Shown piece by piece: positions 1,763-21,825 of a stretch of 21,825 nucleotides of DNA; the first letter of the stretch is position 1; the number at the start of each line of letters is the position of its first letter. The notes under the pieces were generated by a model. It did no database searches and was not told the origin of the DNA. It worked only from the letters and a program-made list of their open reading frames with translations. The DNA comes from Gonapodya prolifera JEL478 (Eukaryota; Monoblepharomycota; Monoblepharidomycetes; Monoblepharidales; Gonapodyaceae). The translations under genes were made by a program, and so were the position numbers. The stretch is from NCBI GenBank assembly GCA_001574975.1, contig KQ965869.1, positions 8,297 through 30,121 of the forward strand. The letters run 5' to 3'.

Positions 1763-4089
1763 TTAAGTTCGGTGCACTTCGGGGAACTTTCCGGCGATGT
1801 AGTGGATCGCACCGAGGTCTTTGGAGGTGATGTATCCCGCGGGGCCTGCAAGGATTTGAGGAATGCGGTTGACCTGTTGATAAAGACCGCACATGGAGAA
1901 TGTTGATGCTCGATCCCAGACAAAAATGAAGTACAAGGGTCAACTCACGGCGGACGCACACGTCGTCTCAACTGTCGGCGGGACTGGCATTTTCAAGGTT
2001 ATCTTGGCGGGGTCACCGACTAGGATTACAATTGCGGGTTTGCAAGTGAGAAGCCCCGGAATCAAAAATCCGATACACCGTTTCCGTCCACTTACAGATC
2101 TCCCAGTCGTTGCAGTCTTCGTCGCCTGGGGCGTACACTTTGCCGACGGTCGAGAAAATGATTTCGGTACCCTGAAGAAAAGGTCAGTGAACGTGTGAGC
2201 AAATCCGGAAACCAGAGGCAGAAGTTTTTTGTTTTCGATCACTGCTGATACGAACCTCGGCAGTCTGAACGGTAGCTTAAGTGATATTTCGTGGGATGAC
2301 GCGCCAAAAGTAACCACACACTGCTAGTACTCGTACATACCTTTCGCGGCCATGCCGGTGCAGGTTCCGACCTCGAGGGTGCGTTTCAAAACATCGCAGT
2401 AAACAGGCACGTCCGCAAAAGTAGGCTGGAACTCCTGAGTCATCTTGGTGACGGTGAAGCCAAGAGTGTTGGCAAGCCCTTCGGAAGCCGACCAAGCGTA
2501 CGAAGGTCCGGCAGTGGAGGCTTGGGACGAGATTTTGGCCTGAAATTCAGCGGCTGAGAGACCGACCCCGTGCTTCTCGCAAAGTGCGGACCCGTAATCA
2601 TTGACCTAAAACGAGTTTATCAGACTTGCGTACTCGATGCGACAATAGTCGGCACCAACGAGAGGAACACCTCAGCTCACGTTGTAAGACGAGAGACCCA
2701 CGACCTTCTGAACGTTTGCAGCGGCACCTGCCACAGCGGCCGGCAGGACGACCCACGCCCACTCTGAGTAGCCCGATCCAAACACGGCGGCATTGTTGGC
2801 CTTTGCGACCTTGTCGATCTCCTCGACGATTGCTGTGATGGGTCAGAGTGTCAGTGAATTGGCTTGAGGGTGTCGCCAAATTCATGCGGCATGGGCCTTC
2901 CGCTAGCTCAGATAGTAGCCACTCCGCGCTGTATCTTTCGTCTCCAGCGAACAGCCTCGGTCAGCGCATTCGGCGCTTTCGCCCGCGGTTAGCTCCGCCA
3001 AATTGTTCCACTTCGCGGTTTCCAGGATATCCTCGAAGTCGAATCACCCGCCTCCGTTGGACTCCTCGCTTAGCGCCGTCACACTCAGGCTTCGAGTTCG
3101 CTCCGCGAGAACATATTCCGTTCCGCAGGTCACTCGTGTCTGGCTGACATCCCCCGCCTGGATGTTTGCTCCGCGGGATTACATTCCGCTACGCGGGGTG
3201 TTCGGCTCCAGCGGACAGCCTCGGTCAGCGCATTCAACGCTCAGGCCTCGGGTTTGCTCCGAGAGGAACATTCCGCTTCGCGCAGCACTCGCTTCCGGAC
3301 GATAGCCTCGGTCAGCGCTACGTGCTTCGCACTTTAGGGGCCGCGAGGAACGACTCCACTGCACTCGGGTTCACCTCGTTCGTTCCTTCTCGCCCCCTCC
3401 CCCGGCCCAGCCACCACTCCCTCACCTTTCGCAGTCGTGATGGGATAGGTCGCCTCCTCTGCAATGGTCACGACCGACACTCCCTTGGAAACACACGTCA
3501 GAATGGGGTCCTTGAGTTCCTTCAGGGTCGACCGTGTTGCGAGAATGCAGATATCGGGCTTTGTGGCAGCGATGGCAACTTCGGCGTCGGCTGGGGATGT
3601 GACGACGCGCGAGGAGATTTGCGGGAGGTCTGGTGTGAGCTGTCCGACTGTTGGTCGGCGGTGTGCACGAATTCAATTGCCATGTGTCGCGATATTCGGG
3701 CAAATGAAAATCTGGTTGTCAAAGTACCCGTCGACGATCGCGAGCTACGTACTCGTCTTTCCGACGCGGGAAGCGTTCCTGTCCACCACCAAGACAACGT
3801 CACCTCCTTTTTGCTATTTTGAAGGGGGCGATCGTGTGGGGCAATCATGTCCGCGAACGGTCGTCAGATTTCGACAGTAAGCGCAGACGCTGGGAAGCAC
3901 TCACGAGGACGTATTTTGCGCAGATTGGGTTCATGAGCCCCCAGCCCCAGAGCATCACCTGGATTGGATGTGTTGGTTGTGTTGAAATATTGTGGGGTAC
4001 ATCGTCGTCAGGGCCGAGACGGGAGTCCAGTCAGTCGAAAGTTTCTTAAAGTTGTCAGCGCAGACTTGCGAGTTCACCTTGACAGTCAT
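1763..4089 (-). CDS. DapB-like / 2,4-diaminopentanoate dehydrogenase-like NAD(P)-dependent oxidoreductase
   Basis: Ten exons on the minus strand: 4089-4078, 3958-3905, 3813-3753, 3647-3426, 2832-2681, 2605-2341, 2264-2256, 2171-2096, 2019-1949 and 1873-1763. They give about 343 residues, the usual size of this family. The N-terminal Rossmann fold shows MTVKVMLWGWGLM (residues 1-13) with the Gly motif at 9-11, then a second strand ending VVDRN (31-35); Asp33 is the expected ribose-contacting acid. PDICILATRST, GVSVVTIAEEA and YP (in exon 4) match the dihydrodipicolinate-reductase N-terminal domain as found in 2,4-diaminopentanoate dehydrogenases. The C-terminal part (GDPAKITL, NRIPQILAGPAGYIT) matches that family's C-terminal domain. 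The substrate is unknown; amino-acid or imine reduction is inferred. Exon 2605-2341 carries one nucleotide too many: removing one T of the TTT at 2342-2344 would join it in phase to the 9-nt microexon (Thr-Ala-Glu). Nine introns argue for a resident nuclear gene even if its ancestor was bacterial. Confidence 0.85.
2833..3425 (-). repeat. 593-bp intron of the oxidoreductase gene, filled with GC-rich modular repeat
   Basis: The other eight introns of this gene are 75-119 bp; this one is 593 bp. Its donor (complement of 3425-3420) and acceptor (CACAG at 2837-2833) are canonical and the phase is right. Between about 2890 and 3410 it holds three copies of CCTCGGTCAGCGC (2954-2966, 3219-3231, 3306-3318 on the + strand). 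These are interspersed with related runs such as GCTCCGCG, TTCCGCT and ACTCGG. A tail at about 3350-3405 (ACTCCACTGCACTCGG...TCGTTCGTTCC) recurs inverted at 4540-4600. The size difference suggests that a repeat expanded inside a normal short intron. Confidence 0.75.
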
Positions 4090-7700: not shown

Positions 7701-8381
7701 CTATGGCAAATCTGCGAGCTTTGTAGACTGAACGTGCAATCCAACCAAGGGAACAGAGCGACAGTGGCCGACGACCCCAAGAGCCGGGAACATCGTAGTG
7801 CCCAAAGAATGTACGCAAACGTGTGAGCCCGCCCTGTCACTGATTTAATCGGACGGACGCGACGTCCAGTCCGGACAAGGAGAGCTGTCTAGGATGCGGT
7901 ACTCGTTCGAGTATCATGCTGTCGCACTGGGGACTATGAGCGACCCGCCACGGAAACAGAAAAGGGCGGTTGCAGATGTATGTCAGTGCTTCACGTGAGT
8001 TCCCTCCATGTAAGGTGGGCAGTAACAATAGGCAGGCGTCTTCAAAGCTGACGCGACCAGGTGACGCGGTTTCCGATCGAGTCACTTTGGCAAGACGAGC
8101 GATGCTCAGGGCCCGTACCCAACAAACGCACGTCTGAACGCAGCAGACGAGTGATGCGATGCAGATGTGAATCCATTAGGTGCAAGCTGCATCGGATGCG
8201 GTGCGCGGTTGCGCGTGCGGGCAGTCGAGACACGAAGGCGGAAGAGCGCGCCGAGCGGGTCTGCCGGTGCCTGCGTGCGTGCGTGTGGGTGTTCGTTGCA
8301 AAGACATGTCTCCAGAGAAAAAACGCGACCGCAGCATCTGCACAAACAACGTGGCACACTCTCTCGCATCGTCAACCGTCA
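7701..8381. other. Region without a supportable gene upstream of the OCIA-like gene
   Basis: Only short or compositionally biased frames are present. The CG-rich stretch 8160-8300 gives long overlapping frames on several reading phases, which is expected from base composition. It probably includes the promoter and 5' UTR of the gene starting at 8382, but no specific site is evident. Confidence 0.45.
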
Positions 8382-11447: not shown

Positions 11448-11693
11448 AGTATGGCCGTGTTGTAATCTGTATTGTTTGAAATGAACCGTCGTGGCGCAAA
11501 CTAGGGAGTCCGGCATGGTATCACCTGTCGCTATGCTTTCTAATTGAGTTTCAAATAGTACCTGTAGGTGTGTTACCCGACAGCCTCGAAAAACAAAATA
11601 CTGTTGCCGAGTCGCTGTACAAAAAACATGAATTTGTTAAAGTCGCACGTTCTCATTGAGTCACCTTCCGTAACTGTCTAAATATATAACTGG
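11448..11693. other. Intergenic region after MPC2
   Basis: AT-richer sequence with no gene or repeat that I can support. It ends where the first tRNA-Cys 5'-half copy begins. Confidence 0.5.
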
Positions 11694-11723
11694 TCGCCTG
11701 CTCTACCACTGAGCTAAGCGTCA
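11694..11723 (-). pseudogene. tRNA-Cys 5'-half fragment, outer copy
   Basis: These 30 nt are the reverse complement of the first 30 nt of the tRNA-Cys gene at 14801-14830, with no mismatch. The match covers the 5' acceptor strand, D arm and 5' anticodon stem. It stops at the anticodon stem/loop border, so no anticodon or 3' half is present. The next few bases upstream of the tRNA (CGAGGA) also match the right-hand copy, then similarity ends. Confidence 0.85.
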
Positions 11724-11760
11724 CGAGGACTTCCTTTAGCCATTTGTTGCACATTATTGC

Positions 11761-11790
11761 TCGCCTGCTCTACCACTGAGCTAAGCGTCC
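11761..11790 (-). pseudogene. tRNA-Cys 5'-half fragment, inner copy at the end of the left inverted-repeat arm
   Basis: This is a second reverse-complement copy of the same 30-nt tRNA-Cys 5' half, 67 bp from the first and also ending at the anticodon stem/loop border. It differs from the complete gene at one base, tRNA position 1 (G here, T in the gene). The left arm of the long inverted repeat starts with it. Confidence 0.85.
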
Positions 11791-12059
11791 GGAGGGGTGT
11801 TGCGATAAATTTGGAAACTTTGCATTATATCAGGAACTAAATGATCCGTAATACATGATTTTTAAAGCCACCATCATGCCCCTTCCTTCAGAGTTTTATC
11901 GTGCATTACTGATTCCATACTCAACCACCACGAAAGCGTCCTGTGGATTGTCACAAATCAAGGTGAAAAGATGCATCACCATGTGGTAAGCAGTCAATTG
12001 CGGAATGTCTGTCAGTTGTTTCTATTACCCTCCGTCACCCGTGCACTGGACTCTGCCAC
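11761..12059 (+). repeat. Left arm of the long inverted repeat
   Basis: This pairs with 14543-14830 in reverse complement. The inner part (about 11823-12033) is nearly identical to the other arm. The 5'-flank portion at 11788-11820 holds most of the differences. It contains a 13-nt insertion relative to the right arm near 12034-12046. Confidence 0.9.
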
Positions 12060-14542
12060 ACTTGCATAGGAATCTCTCTTACTAAACTTTAGTTTCTCAT
12101 CTTTTGGGGTCATTTTGAACACAATTTGACATTGTTTCAAGGCGCGCGTCGAGCCCAAAAGTGATGTCCCATGGCAGCTGCACCAAATGGAGGAAATACA
12201 AGAAGTATGATAAAACTGCATTGGAAATCTTGAAACCTTATGTACTCAAAGCAAATACGTACTCGCTTCACAGTTCCGTAGAAAGAGTTCAGTTGTGTAA
12301 ACAGACTACTCATCCAGAAAAGCAAACAAACGCAGCCACTCTTGACAAGACGGGCTCCCCCGCTCTCACCCTGAGCTTATCTCAATGCGATTTGTGCCGT
12401 ATTCTTTCCAGGCCCATGCGCGTTGTGTGCCAAATACATAGTCACCTTGCTGATCCAGTTGAAATGCATGAGAAACAAGAATGAGGGGAGCTTGTAGTTG
12501 TGGAAGGTGAGAATACAGGCATCTCTGTCACTGTGAAAAAGCAGTGTGCATGGAGATATGACAGCATTGACTCATATATTTCTACCTTCCCCCTGATCCG
12601 CAACAACAAAACTGTGCAATGTCTGCAAAATACGGACACACAGCTCATCAGCGCCGTGCAAGGGTGATACTCAAGGCTAGGCAATGGGTGAGGCAGATTT
12701 TAGTGGAGGGAGAATGCAGTTCACTATCAGAGTGCACTGCTGTTGGCAATTTTATGCAGGAGAATTGGAGTAGTAAAGGTTCTGCTGGAGAGTTGCCAAC
12801 TTCCAAAGTGCTCACAACTGGAGTGAGGTCAATGCCAGTGAGAAATTTAGCTGTTGACAACTAGATTTCCCTCCCGGCTCACTCCAGCAATGCATGTTGT
12901 GGGAAGTTACATGAAAGTTTGCAAAGGAAGTAAATGATCAGACATTCCAGAATCCAGATGACAACAGAGCCCACTACATCAGTCGGACAGGTGGCAAAGT
13001 GAAGATGAATTACCTGACTAAGTGGCAAAACTTATATGTTGAGTTCACTGCGCCTTCATATCTAGATACTGTTCCATGTTCAGCACCTTCTTGCTTACAG
13101 AACTGACATCAACAATGTAGAACTTAATTTGTGATCATTGCAGATCTCAATGCAAAAGTTTGAGAACTTAGGCCAAACCAAGCTTGACAGTGGTGATATG
13201 ATGATCAAGTCTGCCAATAAAATTTACCTAGTCAAATGTAACTCAGCAGCAATTGCAATTGACAAAATCAATCCAGCAGAAATGAGCAGCAGTCCCTCCA
13301 CTCATCCCCATACTGGTCCTTTGACCATTGTGGCTTGGCTAATTGCATTTTGCCTTGGCTCATGGCAATCAGTGTATTTCTTCCTCAATCTGTCTCCCAG
13401 CACACAGCTAAAAATACCTCAAGCTAAGCCAAATATAGCTATCAAGAACAAAGCCATGTCCGCACAGAGGTAGACACTTCTAAGCTCAGACAAAAAACTG
13501 TTGAAATTGCATTGCTTTTGTTCCAGTAACATACGTGATCTGTACTCTTGCATTTGGGCTGCTAGTTGTGCAGTCAAACCCAAGCAGGTCACAAATACCT
13601 GCGACATAGCCAAAGGGCAGCTAGGGGACGGGTAGGGGTGGTAAGCAATTGTACATGGGAGGTTGAGAAGTTTGGACTGTTCGGTCCAGGAGTGGTACTT
13701 TCTAATGTAGTTTTGTATACCTTGAACAACAGGGAATCCGTTTTGACATCCCAGCAGCACTTCTGAGACAGGTGAGTGGTCTTGATGACTGGCAGATATA
13801 GGTCCCTCCCCTCTGTTGCCACCAGCATTTGTAGAGCTGTGATGTAGAAAGGGAAAGGAGGTGGGGGTGCTACCCAACCTAGGGGTGCTCCGTGAGACCT
13901 GTGTGCTGCAGGACCACGATCATATATGAGTGACACAAGGCATACATAGTAGATGTGACATAGTCTCACCTGCAGGACCACGACGCCAAACATGGGCTGT
14001 GTCCTGCAGGGGAGAATATATAAACTAGGGAACTGTTCCATGCTGTGCCGCCTAAGGTGCCTCACCTTAACAGCACTGTGCCACACACTCAGCCCCTATC
14101 TGTGCTGTGCCACACTCCACCCCACACAGCCATGTAAATGGCTGTCACCCAGCAGGCTGGGTGACAGGGGGCCTCTGGTGTTGACAGGTTTGCAAAATTC
14201 CAATTACTTTGAAAGTGTAAAAAGCAATTTCTGTTTAAAGCATTGTTTCTCTCTCCCAAGTCCACATGCACAGGGTATAAGACATAGGAGTGATAAGACC
14301 CAGTATGATTGGTTAATTAGGTTGCAGCCTGCAGGGTCATTTTCTCCTGTGCACTGTGCTCCATGCAGCATCATCCTTGACACTAAAGACAGCGAGTCTC
14401 ACCAACTGTTAGCACTGGAATACCCCACTGCCTCCCACTTCTGCACCACACCCAAGTGCTACCCTACTTCTTTTATGGCTCAGCAAAGTCCACTTCGTCT
14501 CTTGTCTGCGTCTAGACCTTGCAAAGATCAACCTGTGCCTAG
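12060..14542. other. Interior of the inverted-repeat element; no intact gene recognised
   Basis: The 2.5 kb holds only frames up to 215 codons on the + strand and 165 on the minus strand. None shows a transposase, integrase or reverse-transcriptase motif that I can see. Spliced genes cannot be excluded. Short internal direct repeats occur: TGCAGGACCACGA near 13908 and 13974, and CTGTGCCACAC near 14076 and 14106. Composition is AT-richer than the neighbouring genes, consistent with a separate origin. Confidence 0.5.
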
Positions 14543-14830
14543 GTGGCAGAGTCCAGTGCACGGGTTAGAAACAACTGACAGACATTCCACAATTGACTGC
14601 TTACCACATGGTGATGCATCTTTTCACCTTGATTTGTGACAATCCACAGGACGCTTTTCGTAGTGGTTGAGTATGGAATCAGTAATGCACGATAAAACTC
14701 TGAAGGAAGGGGCATGATGGTGGCTTTGAAAATCATGTATTACGGATCATTTAGTTCCTGATATAATGTAAAGTTTCGGACTTCATCACAACACTCCTCG
14801 TGACGCTTAGCTCAGTGGTAGAGCAGGCGA
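14543..14830 (-). repeat. Right arm of the long inverted repeat
   Basis: This is the reverse-complement partner of 11761-12059. It runs outward into the complete tRNA-Cys gene, and the repeat stops exactly where the tRNA anticodon loop begins (14830/14831). Confidence 0.9.
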
Positions 14831-14872
14831 CTGCAGATCGTCAGGTCACCGGATCAACCCCGGTAGCGTCCT
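14801..14872 (+). tRNA. tRNA-Cys (anticodon GCA)
   Basis: A full cloverleaf can be drawn. The acceptor 5' strand TGACGCT pairs with 3' AGCGTCC, the D stem is GCTC/GAGC, the anticodon stem GGCGA/TCGTC closes loop CTGCAGA with anticodon GCA, the variable loop is AGGTC, and the T stem is ACCGG/CCGGT. The discriminator base is T (U73), the known cysteine identity base. Two oddities are visible: the first acceptor pair is U1-C72, a mismatch, and the T loop starts ATC rather than TTC. The left inverted-repeat copy has G at position 1, which would pair with C72. No intron is present. The gene may be functional or an early pseudogene. Confidence 0.85.
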
Positions 14873-14883
14873 TCACCAAGAAT

Positions 14884-15870: not shown

Positions 15871-17950
15871 ATGCATCTCCAGCAGTGCTGGGTGGTGTTG
15901 GCACTATCCCTCCTCATTTTCCACGCCACACTTGCACCGGTCCATGGCCAATCGTACGCACCCGACTGCGCTGTGCTGGAGGGAATGTACTCTCAAAGTG
16001 GACTGTCGCCGCCTTGGACGATTGGGAGCTGTTGCGGATACACCACGGGCAAGATAACGATCGGGTGCGATGGTGGGGGAAGAATCGTCGAGGCGCATCT
16101 TGCGTCGGTCAATCTGGGTGGTTCTATCCCGTCGTTGGCTGGTTTGGCGAATGTGAGTGTGATGGATTGGGTTGTGCCAAGCTTTGTCGTTGGGTCGAGA
16201 CTGTCAATGGCATTGCTGAAATCGAACGACACTCTCAGATGCAAATACTCGACTTGACTGGGAACAACTTCGTGGGAAACTTACCAAATCTCAACGCGAA
16301 TGTGAGCCACATCGTGCCGCCGCACAAAACAACTTTACCTTACGTCTCAGACACCTAGCCATTTCTCACTCAAATCAACGTTCAACGCAACAACCTGGCA
16401 GGCAACATTGACGGCTTGCTCCCTTCAACCCTTTCAAGCTGCGCGCTTACAAGCAGCTCGTCCAACAACGGGCTCTACTCTTGCACAAATAACTTCCCAG
16501 CCGTGTGCCAAAGAACAGGAGATGCTGCTATCTCAATTGGCGGAGCAAATTGTGCCGCGCAACCTCCATCTTCTCCACCACCGTCCACTGTCGCACCCCC
16601 GCCTCAAGGAACGACAGGAGGCGGTGCTACGACTGCACCTCCTCCACCCGCTCTCTCCACCCCGCCACCACCTCCTCCCGCGTTAACCGTAGTTGTCATC
16701 AGCGGAGTCACAATGACGACACTTTCTGCCATCCCACCTCCCCCAATCTCTACAATGGAGTATATCAACGGATCACTCGTCGCAGTCGTCACCCAAGCAC
16801 CACCACCCCCTCCTCCTCCCGTGACGACTGTCATCTACGTTAGCGGGGCCGCATATACGACTTATCTTCCTGCCCCCGCACCCAGCGCGTCTGGTGATGC
16901 AATGATTGACAGGACGTCCAGCGGGGGCAATACGAGTTCAGGCCCCAACATTGCCCTCATCGCGGGATCGATTGCTGGAGTGATCGTGGTTGTCGGAGCT
17001 GTTGTGGGTGTTCTGGTGCACAACCGCCGGCGTACGCGGCGAGGCGACAGTGAGTGCGATTGGACAAGACCTGACCTGGTTTGTGCTTTACCCAACAGTC
17101 TTACTCCTCCAGTACCCAGCTTTGTAAAACTCACGCCCACTTCACGGGACTTTCCCGACCCCTCTTCCTCCGCAAAACTCCCACGCTCTGCCTTTGCCAA
17201 ACCGACGTATCCAACCGAACCCTCCACCTCTCTCGCCAGCCGCACCCTTTCAACTTACCCCAACTCCAATCCTCCAGCAAGTATGGGCATTGCGGCCTCG
17301 CAATTTTCTCAAACTGCCACGGACACAGATTCCGAAGGTGGCACGCCGCACTGGGCGTTCGCGCAATTAGTCCCGCCACTGTACCACCACGCCCCGTCGT
17401 ACGACGTGCCAGGCAACTCGCAGTTTCAGGCCCATACGGACGTAAGTGCCTTACTTTGACCCGTTTGCTTCTTCCCGACATCAAATTTTTCTGCAATAAA
17501 GTACTCACCCGTCAACACGGACGAGATTCCGGTAAATCAGGGCGACTGGATGAAGCTGAAAACAGTGTTCCGAGACGGATGGTGTTTCGCTCTGAACGTG
17601 GATCAGGAGGTGTTCGGGCTTGTTCCATTGTGAGTTCCGTTTGAATGTATGACCCCCCATATCCTCTTCCATCTGTGGAACATGTGAGCCACGACACTGA
17701 CACACCCGCCCGCTCGCACAGAGATTGCCTCGTAATCCACCCGTCTGCAACCAACCCCGGGTTCTCCACTCGATCGCCCAACCGGATAGAGTCCCTCGCC
17801 GTCGCACGCTCTGCAACCATCGCCTCAAACGCCTTCCCCGTCTCAACACCCCTGCCAGCGTATCCTGGTCCGACGTCGAAATTCTTTGGCTCTGGTGTGA
17901 TGTATTCCGAGCATGGAAGCTCCGGTGGGGGACTGTCATCGTCGGGGTAA
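15871..17950 (+). CDS. LRR ectodomain - transmembrane - SH3 receptor-like protein (copy A)
   Basis: Six exons (15871-16152, 16239-16301, 16359-17049, 17113-17441, 17502-17629 and 17722-17950) give 573 residues in phase. Residues 1-26 are a signal peptide (cleavage likely before QSYAPDC). About 27-135 is a plant-RLP-like LRR module: an N-cap with Cys, CC and Cys, then GGSIPSLAGLAN, LDLTGNNFVGNLPNL and NVQRNNLAGNI. A C-terminal Cys cap follows. Then comes a Pro-rich stalk with three V-TTV-SG-type segments, a membrane helix (about 312-336) followed by NRRRTRR, and a disordered Ser/Pro tail. An SH3 domain lies at about 455-502 (VNTDEI, GDWMKL, DGW, GLVPLDCL). An extracellular-sensing, cytoplasmic SH3-adaptor role is inferred. 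The start at 15871 was chosen because the signal peptide begins there; ATG 15745 is in frame but adds 42 polar residues. The 63-bp intron 3 is in frame and stop-free. Confidence 0.85.
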
Positions 17951-18396
17951 ACCTCCCTGAACGCCGCTGCAGGATCGAAGCGGAGTACGGCACCGGGGAG
18001 CGTAGGTATGGGTGGGGGTGCTTCTGGGAGGATGAGTTGATTGGAAACATTCGGAAAGGCGGCAGGCTTTACTTCGAGGACGGGGGAAGACACATCCACC
18101 GAACTTTTTCGCAACGGACAAACTGCATTTCGTATGTAAAAACGATACCCTAAATATGTTTCACGCCCATAGAACTATGGATAATATGTCGATCAGACTA
18201 CGTAGACAGGTAACTTTCGATATTGTTTACACAGTACAAGTGCAAATGGTACAATTCCAGATAGGGTTCGGTATCACGAACGTTATTTTTCTATGCATGA
18301 TGTCCACGTGTCTGCAAAGTCCAAAAAATCCACCTGCGCTCACGTCACCCACGCTCAATTCTCCCTCGACATAGTCCAACCAGATCGAACCTTGAA
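17951..18396. other. Spacer between the two tail-to-tail SH3 genes
   Basis: These 446 bp separate the stop codons of the convergent paralogues. No repeat or gene is apparent. It must hold both 3' ends, but I could not find a clear AATAAA for either. Confidence 0.45.
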
Positions 18397-20821
18397 TCAG
18401 TACACTCTTCCATAACCATTCCGCGCCCCAAAGCTCCCAGGCACCGCACTCCTCCGACTCCCTGGAGTGCCCACATCCATGCTCCCGACACCGCTCCCTC
18501 CACTCACGAAACTCGTCGCCCCGTCTGATCGTACACTCGGTTGACTCGTGGTGTCGTCTTTCAACCGCGTCGTACTGTTGCTCCCACCCGAACTGGCCGT
18601 GGCTCTACTCCCCGGCATCGATCCTGCACCCAGATATGACGGTAACGGTGTCGATAATGGACCCATTCGTGGCCCATTCACGTCGGATGAAGACGCGAAC
18701 GTGGCCGATTTGGCCATGGCCATGGAAAGGGACTCGATCCTGTAGCTTGGCGTGCGAAGGGGGGCGGCGAGGCCGGAAGCAGGGGCGGAGGGTTTTATGT
18801 TCAAGCAGTCCCTTTTTTGGTTGGGGTGAGGTCAGGGGAGGGGGGTGGTGCAAGAGAGAACGCGAGCAAACTCACAAGGGTACGAGTCCTACGACCTCCA
18901 AATCGACGTTCAGAGCGTATGCCCATCCATCTCTAAACACAGATTTAAGCTTGATCCAGTCGCCTTGACGGGCGTGGATTTCGTCGGTGTTGACGGGGGT
19001 GTACTGAAGGTTGGGGTTGAGGGGGAGATCGGGCCATAAGTAGAGACAAAGTTGCTTGGCGGGACGTGTGAGAAACTGTATACATACATCCATCAACGCT
19101 TGGGACTGCCAGTTGCCCGGTACGTCATACGACGCCGTCGAATGAAATATCGGGGGCACGAGCTGCGCAAACGCCCAATGGGGCGGTTCCTGAGGTTGGT
19201 CCCCCTCCTCTTGGTCGCCAGCAGCGGTGTGAGCAAATTGGGACGTTGGGTACTGCTGGGATAAACCCATGCTACTCGACGGCAGTACTGGCGATGTGGT
19301 ATGGGAGGAGTTGAGTGTGCGTGAGGAGAGGGACCCCGAGACCATTGACGAGCCCTGCTTGGCGAACCCTGATGCGGCAGTCGGCGGTCGTGAGGGCAGG
19401 GTTGACGAAAGGTTAGGGTCGCCGAATTCGGTGGATCGGGAGGGCGGGACGTGATCTAGTTTGACGAAATCGGTGGCTGGTGAGTGGTGTGAACATGAAC
19501 CTTGGTGGCCCGTAAATCTTTCCCAAACACAGTCGGACGAAACGTACCTTTGTTCTTCCTACGCCGTGTGTACAAGACTGCCGCCAAAACAAGCAGGAGG
19601 ACGGCGACGCCGCCAGCGACAGCTCCAGCGATGACGCCGATGTTGGGGGAGGAGGATGAGGATGGAATGGCGGGTTGAGCGGTGCCTCCGACGATTCCAT
19701 TGGCTGGTGGCGACCCTGCCACAACTGGCGCCGGTGAAGCGGGCATGACTGTTGTCTGTGCCACTCCTGACACGAAAACGACGGTGGTGACGGGTGGTGG
19801 GGGTGGAGGTGGCGGTACGGCGGTGACGGTTGCGATGAGAGTGCCAGAGACCTCGATCATTGTGGTCACTGGTGGGGGAGGTGGTGGTGGGACGGGAGAC
19901 ATCGTCGTGACGGGGACGCCAGACACGATGACGACGGTTGTTACAGGGGGTGGTGGAGGTGGTGCTGGGAGTGCGGGTGGCGGCGGTGACCCGGGTGGAG
20001 GTGGAACGGCAGATGTTGCTTGCGAGGGCGGAGGTGCCGATGTTGGCTGTCCGGCCGGAGGTGATGCGGGGGGAGCGGCAGGAGGTGGTGCAGCCGGCGG
20101 TGGTGTCGCGGGTGGTGGAGTGGACCCGCAATTGGTACCGCCCACGGGAATGGCTGCGTCTCCCGACTTCTGACAAACTTGGGGAAAGTTGTTTGTGCAA
20201 GAGTACAGTCCCTTGTTTGAGGTTCCCGATGTGACTGCGCAGTTTGAGAGGGTGGCAGGGAGCAGGCCGTCGATGTTCCCAGCGAGGGTGTTGCGTTGGA
20301 GATTGATCTGGGTGAGGAACGCCTATGTGTGGGTTGTGTGAGTGGGAGCACCTTGGAAGGTGGTGAGAGGAGAGACCCCAACTCACATTAGGGTTGAGAT
20401 TGGGCACATTTCCAACGAATTGGTTGTTGCTCAGATCGAGAACTTGCAGCTGCAAAGACTCTCTGTCAGTCGATCTCGTACCGCAAAACGCAGTTCGGAC
20501 AGACAGTTCGGACACACCCACGTTGGTCAAACCGGCGAGGCTTGGTATCGTCCCCATCAACCTCCCCTCCACCTGACTCATATGCGCCGTCACGACTCTC
20601 CCTCCGCCATCACACGCAATCGTGATCAGCGACGTGGAGTACCCGCAGCAGTTTCCCGTCGTCCACGGCACAGCCAGCGCACTCTGGGTGAAGAGCCCTT
20701 CGAGGATGGCGCAATCCGGCGCATATGATTGCGCATAGTAAGATGGCGCGAGGATGGCGAGGAAAAGGAGGACTGCAGCGTGGCTTGCTGACCGGATCGT
20801 GTGGGGAGTCCAACGTTGCAT
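18397..20821 (-). CDS. LRR ectodomain - transmembrane - SH3 receptor-like protein (copy B)
   Basis: Six exons (20821-20522, 20449-20387, 20322-19548, 19476-19088, 19003-18876 and 18811-18397) give 689 residues. Every intron sits at the same place and phase (0, 0, 1, 0, 2) as in copy A. Signal peptide about 1-31, then QSYAPDCAILEG, the LRR N-cap, GTIPSLAGLTN, LDLSNNQFVGNVPNLNPN and LQRNTLAGNI, and a Cys cap. The stalk is longer than in copy A (extended PPPA/PPS runs) and carries the three VTTVV-VSG segments between runs of 7-8 Pro. The membrane helix is about 348-372, followed by TRRRKNK. The tail has PHWAFAQLVPP and SYDVPGN, then the SH3 domain (about 508-554: VNTDEI, GDWIKLK, DGWAYALNVD, GLVPLDCL). 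The C-terminal Ser/Gly-rich tail is longer than in copy A. Start at 20821, where the signal peptide opens; an in-frame ATG at 20917 adds 32 residues. Confidence 0.85.
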
Positions 20822-21244: not shown

Positions 21245-21825
21245 TCACCCAAACGTCTGACTGACCCTGCCTCCTCTCTTGATCTTACTAATCCGCCACT
21301 CGTTCGGCTTCTCGTACCGATTAAACAGGGGCTCGATCTTCTCCATCCGCTTTCGCTTACTCAGCCTGTTCGCATCCGCCACCTTGAAGAACGTCGGGGC
21401 CACCTCCACCAGCCACTTGGGATCCACCGCGACCACCTCACGCATGTACTCCTTCGTCGTCATCACCAACTCGTGGTAAATGACCCACTCGGGCTGGTGG
21501 TTGAACAGCGCCGAGCTTGGGTGGATGTACACTGGTGTCCCCTCGACGAGCGTCTTGTATCCCTCCTGTGGGTCCTTCTTGGCAGCGTGCCGGAAGAATC
21601 CACCACAGATCGCCATAAGAACCTTTCGGAAGTTGCGCCCGCACGACACAATGTCCTGGCGGTACCGGTCCATGATCCCCAGCAGCTGTTTGCGAATGTC
21701 TTGCGCCCGACGCAGTGACCGTGCTTGAACAAAGTTTTCGTAGCACCANGAGTTGCTGAATTTGGAGGCCTTCCACGAGTTGTACACCGTCAAAAGTGTT
21801 AAGTGGTCGCCTTTGTGTGTTGGAG
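21245..21825 (-). CDS. PRP22: DEAH-box pre-mRNA splicing helicase PRP22/DHX8, C-terminal part
   Basis: An open frame enters from the right edge and ends at TGA 21247-21245, giving 192 complete residues. [17 protein letters not shown], then [27 protein letters not shown] and VSCG belong to the helicase-associated domain. [44 protein letters not shown] and [14 protein letters not shown] form the OB-fold domain. [12 protein letters not shown] near the end is typical of the Prp22/DHX8 branch, which uses ATP to release spliced mRNA from the spliceosome; paralogues Prp2, Prp16 and Prp43 differ here. The assembly has one ambiguous base at 21749, the third base of codon TCN, which is serine whatever the base. 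No intron is visible in this part. The 5' portion, with the helicase core, lies outside the window. Confidence 0.9.

Follow-up and report, generated by a model that had tools for sequence, protein, structure and literature searches.

Two convergent paralogous genes of Gonapodya prolifera predicted to encode single-pass membrane proteins with a leucine-rich repeat ectodomain and an SH3 domain

Structure of the locus

We analyzed 21,825 nucleotides (nt) of contig KQ965869.1 of Gonapodya prolifera JEL478 (positions 8,297 to 30,121, forward strand; hereafter the window), in which two neighboring genes, termed A and B, converge tail to tail. An initial annotation, made from the sequence alone, had described both as encoding receptor-like proteins with a leucine-rich repeat (LRR) ectodomain, a membrane helix and an SH3 domain. 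We rebuilt the two genes from splice-site landmarks, splicing being predicted from the sequence. Gene A (15871..17950, + strand) encodes 573 residues in six exons (15871-16152, 16239-16301, 16359-17049, 17113-17441, 17502-17629 and 17722-17950, stop codon included). Gene B (18397..20821, - strand) encodes 689 residues, also in six exons (20821-20522, 20449-20387, 20322-19548, 19476-19088, 19003-18876 and 18811-18397, stop codon included). The coordinates, protein lengths and tail-to-tail arrangement of the initial annotation were thus reproduced. The stop codons of the two genes lie 446 nt apart.

The predicted introns are 57-92 nt long, and all ten have GT..AG ends. Five intron positions are common to the two genes, with phases 0,0,1,0,2 in each, as had been claimed. 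Exon 2 (63 nt) and exon 5 (128 nt) have the same length in A and B. Each gene has an in-frame ATG further upstream (126 nt in gene A, 96 nt in gene B). We kept the inner start codons, without proof, because the upstream extensions look mutually unrelated and would bury the signal peptide. Domain scans and hydropathy reproduced the common layout of LRR domain, proline-rich stalk, membrane helix and SH3 domain behind a signal peptide, which was recognized by reading.

Intron 4 of gene B (19004-19087, - strand) is 84 nt long, a multiple of three, and contains no in-frame stop. Its retention would insert 28 residues directly ahead of the SH3 core, a possible splice variant.

The predicted LRR ectodomain

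The signal peptide of gene A (residues 1-27; 15871..15951, + strand) was assigned by reading and coincides with a hydropathy peak. That of gene B (residues 1-31; 20729..20821, - strand) was assigned by reading only; it falls below the hydropathy threshold of 1.6, every window at this N-terminus being ≤1.6. The LRR ectodomain follows in both proteins and is encoded by exons 1-3. In gene A it spans residues 28-180 (15952..16553, + strand), with about three LRRs, and is supported by Pfam and PDB-sequence matches. In gene B it spans residues 32-186 (20128..20728, - strand) and is supported by Pfam and profile matches. Each ectodomain has eight Cys, four ahead of the LRRs and four behind them, and all eight are kept in both copies. 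They would fit four disulphides.

A Pfam search, proposed with the initial annotation, returned both LRR and SH3 matches, the lack of which it had named as a refutation; in the full proteins all of them lie below the curated cut-offs. LRR_4 matched the full proteins with E values of 1.4e-4 and 1.1e-4 (22.4 and 22.7 bits; curated cut-off 27). When the ectodomains were scanned separately, the best LRR_4 E value was 2.1e-7, in one of the two. PF00560 reached 11.2 and 15.4 bits on the full proteins (cut-off 20.6), and PF07723 and PF07725 were unmatched. In NCBIfam the sole match was internalin_A (E 0.0088), in one of the two ectodomains.

Comparison with PDB sequences revealed the style of the repeats. 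The N-terminal 180 residues of gene A gave 91 distinct matches up to E 1, and the best 60 of these were all, by name, plant-type LRR receptors or their relatives. FLS2 was the top match, with E 1.4e-24 summed over many repeats and 2.7e-5 for the best single stretch. A two-row profile of both ectodomains gave 76 matches up to E 1e-5; the best 60 were again plant-type LRR receptors or relatives by name, and FLS2 was again first (2.8e-39 summed, 1e-5 for the best single stretch). The summed values are inflated by the many repeats of the target proteins. The FLS2 alignment covers residues 44-132 of gene A and begins at the conserved PWT of the cap. No LRRNT model was matched up to E 10 by Pfam, whether with full proteins or with the ectodomains alone. 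Compared alone with PDB sequences, the first 68 residues of the mature ectodomain of gene B matched no plant receptor; the sole matches were two GP2 chains, both weak (E 0.067 and 0.3). What supports a plant-type cap is thus the FLS2 alignment together with the cysteine pattern. The LRR style and the eight Cys agree with the plant-type LRR domain with Cys caps described in the initial annotation; its N-terminal cap, however, has no LRRNT profile match.

Stalk, membrane helix and predicted topology

A proline-rich stalk connects the ectodomain to the membrane (gene A, residues 181-312, 16554..16949, + strand; gene B, residues 187-348, 19642..20127, - strand). Prolines number 41 in the extracellular part of A and 65 in that of B. 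Each stalk contains three 18-residue repeats (VTTVVIVSGVPVTTMSPV in gene B), diverged in gene A, with polyproline between them. In B the likeness of the repeats was strong, 0 of 10,000 shuffles being as similar; in A, with 59 of 10,000, it was moderate. These figures are flattering because the repeats were delimited by eye.

Hydropathy revealed one strong membrane helix per protein, at about residues 313-336 of gene A (16950..17021, + strand) and 349-372 of gene B (19570..19641, - strand), with 19-residue values of 2.75 and 2.67. A further hydrophobic peak, weaker than the helix, lies in the stalk of gene A (1.71 at 222-241). Both helices are followed by RRR, which by the positive-inside rule would place the SH3 domain in the cytoplasm. 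Hydropathy and the SH3 matches together give both proteins a single membrane helix with an SH3 domain near the C-terminus.

SH3 domain and its ligand surface

The SH3 domain is encoded by exons 4-6 and comprises residues 450-503 of gene A (17424..17737, + strand) and 504-557 of gene B (18796..19105, - strand). Pfam SH3_1 matched the full proteins with E values of 7.2e-4 and 5.6e-4. Compared with the PDB, the SH3 query matched 32 distinct sequences up to E 1, the lowest E value being 0.0048, and a two-row SH3 profile matched 20 up to E 0.1 (lowest 0.0022). Seven of the 32 and three of the 20 are named as SH3 in the match tables; we take all 32 and all 20 to be SH3 proteins.

We numbered the SH3 residues after PMC5823434 (Tyr-10, Trp-36, Pro-51, residue 54); this and the other papers are cited from excerpts. 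Tyr-10, Trp-36 and Pro-51 are kept (Y456, W482 and P497 in A; Y510, W536 and P551 in B), and the spacing of the landmarks is canonical, 26, 15 and 3 residues in both proteins. Other positions of the ligand surface are not kept. Position 8 is Thr in A (T454) and Met in B (M508), position 37 is Cys in A (C483) and Ala in B (A537), and position 54 is Cys in both (C500 and C554). Positions 8, 10, 37 and 54 are generally aromatic; Fus1 departs from this at 37 and 54, which are both Cys, and its targets lack the canonical PxxP (PMC5823434). The abnormal ligand surface of the SH3 domain is a new element beyond the initial annotation. Judging by these residues, the domain does not look like a standard PxxP adaptor, which would change its likely partners. 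Both halves of the proposed LRR sensor coupled to an SH3 adaptor were matched, but positions 8, 37 and 54 are unlike those of a standard adaptor of that type.

The ligand consensus described for Fus1 is R[ST][ST]SL plus relaxed forms (PMC4160167, PMC5417721). RxxSL occurs once in each protein, as RIESL in the tail (gene A, residues 519-523, 17783..17797, + strand; gene B, residues 576-580, 18727..18741, - strand), and retains just R, S and L of the Fus1 motif. RIESL as a self-ligand of the SH3 domain is unsupported, since A and B lack the strict Fus1 motifs.

Divergence of the two copies

A and B are identical at 326 of 560 aligned residues. Identity is highest in the LRR ectodomain (109/153) and the SH3 domain (40/53). 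The stalk (68/130), helix (10/27), juxtamembrane part (45/90) and tail (30/61) are 37-52% identical, and the signal peptide has 10 of 24 residues in common. Synonymous differences are near saturation, the proportion of differing synonymous sites (pS) being 0.67-0.83, and 0.51 in the short helix. The rate of nonsynonymous change (dN) is 0.22 in the ectodomain and 0.18 in SH3. With synonymous sites near saturation and the LRR and SH3 domains better kept, both ends of the molecule are under selection and the duplication is old. Constraint on both ends argues that each gene yields one protein that needs both.

Blastn between the loci found only two matches, of 148 and 137 nt (76%), and a recent inverted duplication was rejected on that ground. 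The inverted duplication followed by divergence of the initial annotation stands as a paralogous inverted pair; its age changed, because of the near-saturated synonymous sites and the two short DNA matches. A pseudogene or a fused gene model was rejected because of the near-saturated synonymous sites, the low dN at both ends and the equal intron phases.

Proposed function

We propose, with a probability of roughly 0.45, that A and B act as membrane scaffolds like Fus1 but carry an LRR head as sensor; the two paralogues would be receptors or adhesion sensors of the cell surface that cross the membrane once. The LRR domain, small and capped by disulphides, would be held outside the cell on the proline-rich stalk, which probably crosses the wall. 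A ligand, or a partner protein on a neighboring or mating cell, would bind the LRR head and cause A or B molecules to cluster. Clustering would gather partners on the cytoplasmic Fus1-like SH3 domain, which could recruit polarity, formin or mitogen-activated protein kinase (MAPK)-module proteins through a motif other than PxxP. A scaffold is the simplest working model because no enzyme domain was matched. A signalling role of A and B is plausible; from the predicted genes and proteins we infer their splicing in vivo, their placement in the wall, and that they sense a ligand, cluster and engage partners downstream.

Several points weigh against this proposal. SH3_1 scored 19.6 and 19.9 bits, below the curated cut-off of 22.9 in both proteins. 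Gene B has Ala, not Cys, at position 37. None of the strict Fus1 motifs R[ST][ST]SL, R.[ST]SL and R[ST].[SW]L occurs within protein A or B. About three LRRs make a small recognition surface. Cys-54 may be common among other fungal membrane SH3 proteins, which would weaken a special link to Fus1.

Mid2/Wsc-type sensors and Sho1 pass stretch signals to a MAPK module. A and B may likewise be wall-integrity or osmotic sensors, in which the stalk, probably glycosylated, would be a mechanical probe fixed by the LRR head and SH3 would pass stretch to the MAPK module. The long stalk with its many prolines is consistent with this possibility, as is a weak match of the Mid2 model over the helix of gene B (E 0.15). 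Sho1p also occurs with Fus1p in a larger complex that includes Bni1p (PMC3817587). However, the Mid2 match has 12.3 bits against a cut-off of 23.2, and gene A has none. The LRR domain is also far better kept than the stalk, which favors specific recognition over a simple mechanical spring. We regard a wall or osmotic sensor as unlikely.

In a model of adhesion or self-recognition, the LRR head of one molecule would attach to that of another or to polymers of the wall, with SH3 merely anchoring the proteins to the cortical cytoskeleton and no signalling taking place. Two diverged, adjoining paralogues conserved at both ends would suit such a role, and complexes containing Fus1p localize at mating projections and bind formins (PMC3817587). 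The LRR style, however, is closest to that of plant signalling receptors among PDB chains, a set biased towards those receptors, and we consider pure adhesion distinctly improbable. An annotation error, with the LRR-stalk-helix part and SH3 in separate genes or with both genes decaying, is very improbable. In its favor, the in-frame upstream ATGs make the true starts uncertain, and intron 4 of gene B can be read through without a stop. Against it, domain order is the same in the two diverged copies, their introns agree at all five positions and in phase, and dN is low in both end domains while synonymous sites have almost saturated.

The Fus1-like scaffold with an LRR head can be extended to a wider reading, in which early-diverging fungi would have a class of non-kinase LRR receptors. 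The members of a paralogous pair would detect a ligand, or one another, and signal through clustering of a Fus1-type SH3 scaffold at the membrane. In that reading, the class would have been overlooked because both domains score below the Pfam cut-offs. We hold this extension to be somewhat doubtful.

Other features of the window

An interrupted inverted repeat lies at 11693-12070 and 14532-14831, with four arm pairs of 34-175 nt that are 85-100% complementary and 2461-3065 nt apart. Its right arm overlaps a tRNA-Cys (14800-14874), and on its left side the 5' part of this tRNA is present twice, with the copies 67 nt apart. Six copies of the motif CCTCGGTCAGCRC are distributed over both strands (2955, 3219, 3306, 9075, 9177 and 15116), against a shuffle mean of 0.06. 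They are embedded in longer GC-rich stretches that are related to one another, resembling a family of short interspersed repeats.

The C-terminal part of a splicing helicase resembling Prp22/DHX8 is encoded at 21245-21823 (- strand; OB_NTP_bind, E 7.2e-27), a region that contains the single N of the window. Compared with named entries, this fragment reached 312 bits with DHX8, 282 bits with a "putative pre-mRNA splicing factor" and 164 bits with PRP22 (1145 residues). At 2327-2605 (- strand) there is a weak, sub-cut-off match to the C-terminal domain of 2,4-diaminopentanoate dehydrogenase (E 0.0017), possibly part of a multi-exon oxidoreductase gene.

Comparison with known systems

Proteins with the annotation 'L domain-like' and membrane SH3 proteins occur in the genomes of chytrids and other early-diverging fungi, and the architecture of A and B may exist there unremarked. 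The contig collections searched for relatives were viral, bacterial and archaeal and are uninformative on fungi. In viral contigs, no relative was confirmed among 63 candidate stretches for the ectodomain or 38 for SH3. Of 81 candidate stretches in genome contigs, one, from Thorarchaeota, matched at 38% over query residues 13-54; it lies opposite a 474-residue open reading frame and was taken as chance. A literature search by title and abstract opening, with subscription journals mostly outside its coverage, found no LRR-helix-SH3 receptor described among the papers listed. One paper retrieved with LRR, SH3, chytrid and transmembrane terms (PMC6040629) concerns choanoflagellate Toll-like receptor and kinase proteins, and SH3 occurs once in its excerpted text, in a table caption. 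Another, PMC8533825, offered just FUS1 promoter reporters and was set aside.

Plant LRR receptor kinases and receptor-like proteins (FLS2, ERL, SERK) have in common with A and B the LRR style LxLxxNxFxGxLPxL, a signal peptide and one helix. A and B differ from them in having only about three LRRs, a predicted cytoplasmic SH3 domain, an unmatched LRRNT profile and no kinase match; no kinase family was among the Pfam matches up to E 10 in A or B. Plant LRR-extensins and class I formins, which join LRRs to a proline-rich stretch or anchor the cortex to the wall through the membrane, are alike in function only. To our knowledge, neither has the LRR-helix-SH3 combination, Fus1 has no LRR ectodomain and Sho1 has no LRR.

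In fungi, LRR-receptor genes were absent from 43 of 49 species in a survey by Soanes and Talbot (2010; PMC2939053), which, as far as its excerpted text goes, agrees with the premise of the initial annotation that fungi lack plant-type LRR receptor kinases. That survey scanned three LRR models (PF00560, PF07723 and PF07725) at default Pfam thresholds. It kept five examples from four species, none of them, in the excerpt, with another functional domain. Its candidates resemble A and B in having LRRs and one membrane helix; in contrast to the five that were kept, A and B carry SH3. A and B would have escaped that scan, because PF00560 falls below the cut-off and PF07723 and PF07725 are unmatched. 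More generally, any survey at the curated cut-offs would overlook the two domains, because both LRR and SH3 score below them in the full proteins. As selected, diverged LRR-SH3 copies, A and B would be an exception to a set of 49 fungi in which LRR receptors are almost absent (PMC2939053).

The yeast osmosensor Sho1 is, like A and B, a membrane protein with SH3 (PMC3817587). Sho1 has four membrane helices (PMC4411306), whereas A and B have one strong helix each besides the signal peptide. Fus1 of Saccharomyces cerevisiae acts in the fusion of mating cells. Fus1p is inserted in the membrane and has an SH3 domain, by which it can bind the formins Bni1p and Bnr1p (PMC3817587). A and B resemble it in being predicted membrane proteins with SH3, in Cys at position 54 and, for A, in Cys at position 37; gene B has Ala there, and the likeness is drawn from described residues, not from an alignment of the Fus1 sequence or a tree. 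The layout of A and B could relay an outside signal without a kinase. How this organism might detect external proteins or peptides without a receptor kinase thereby becomes testable, and the question is linked to membrane scaffolds of the Fus1 type.

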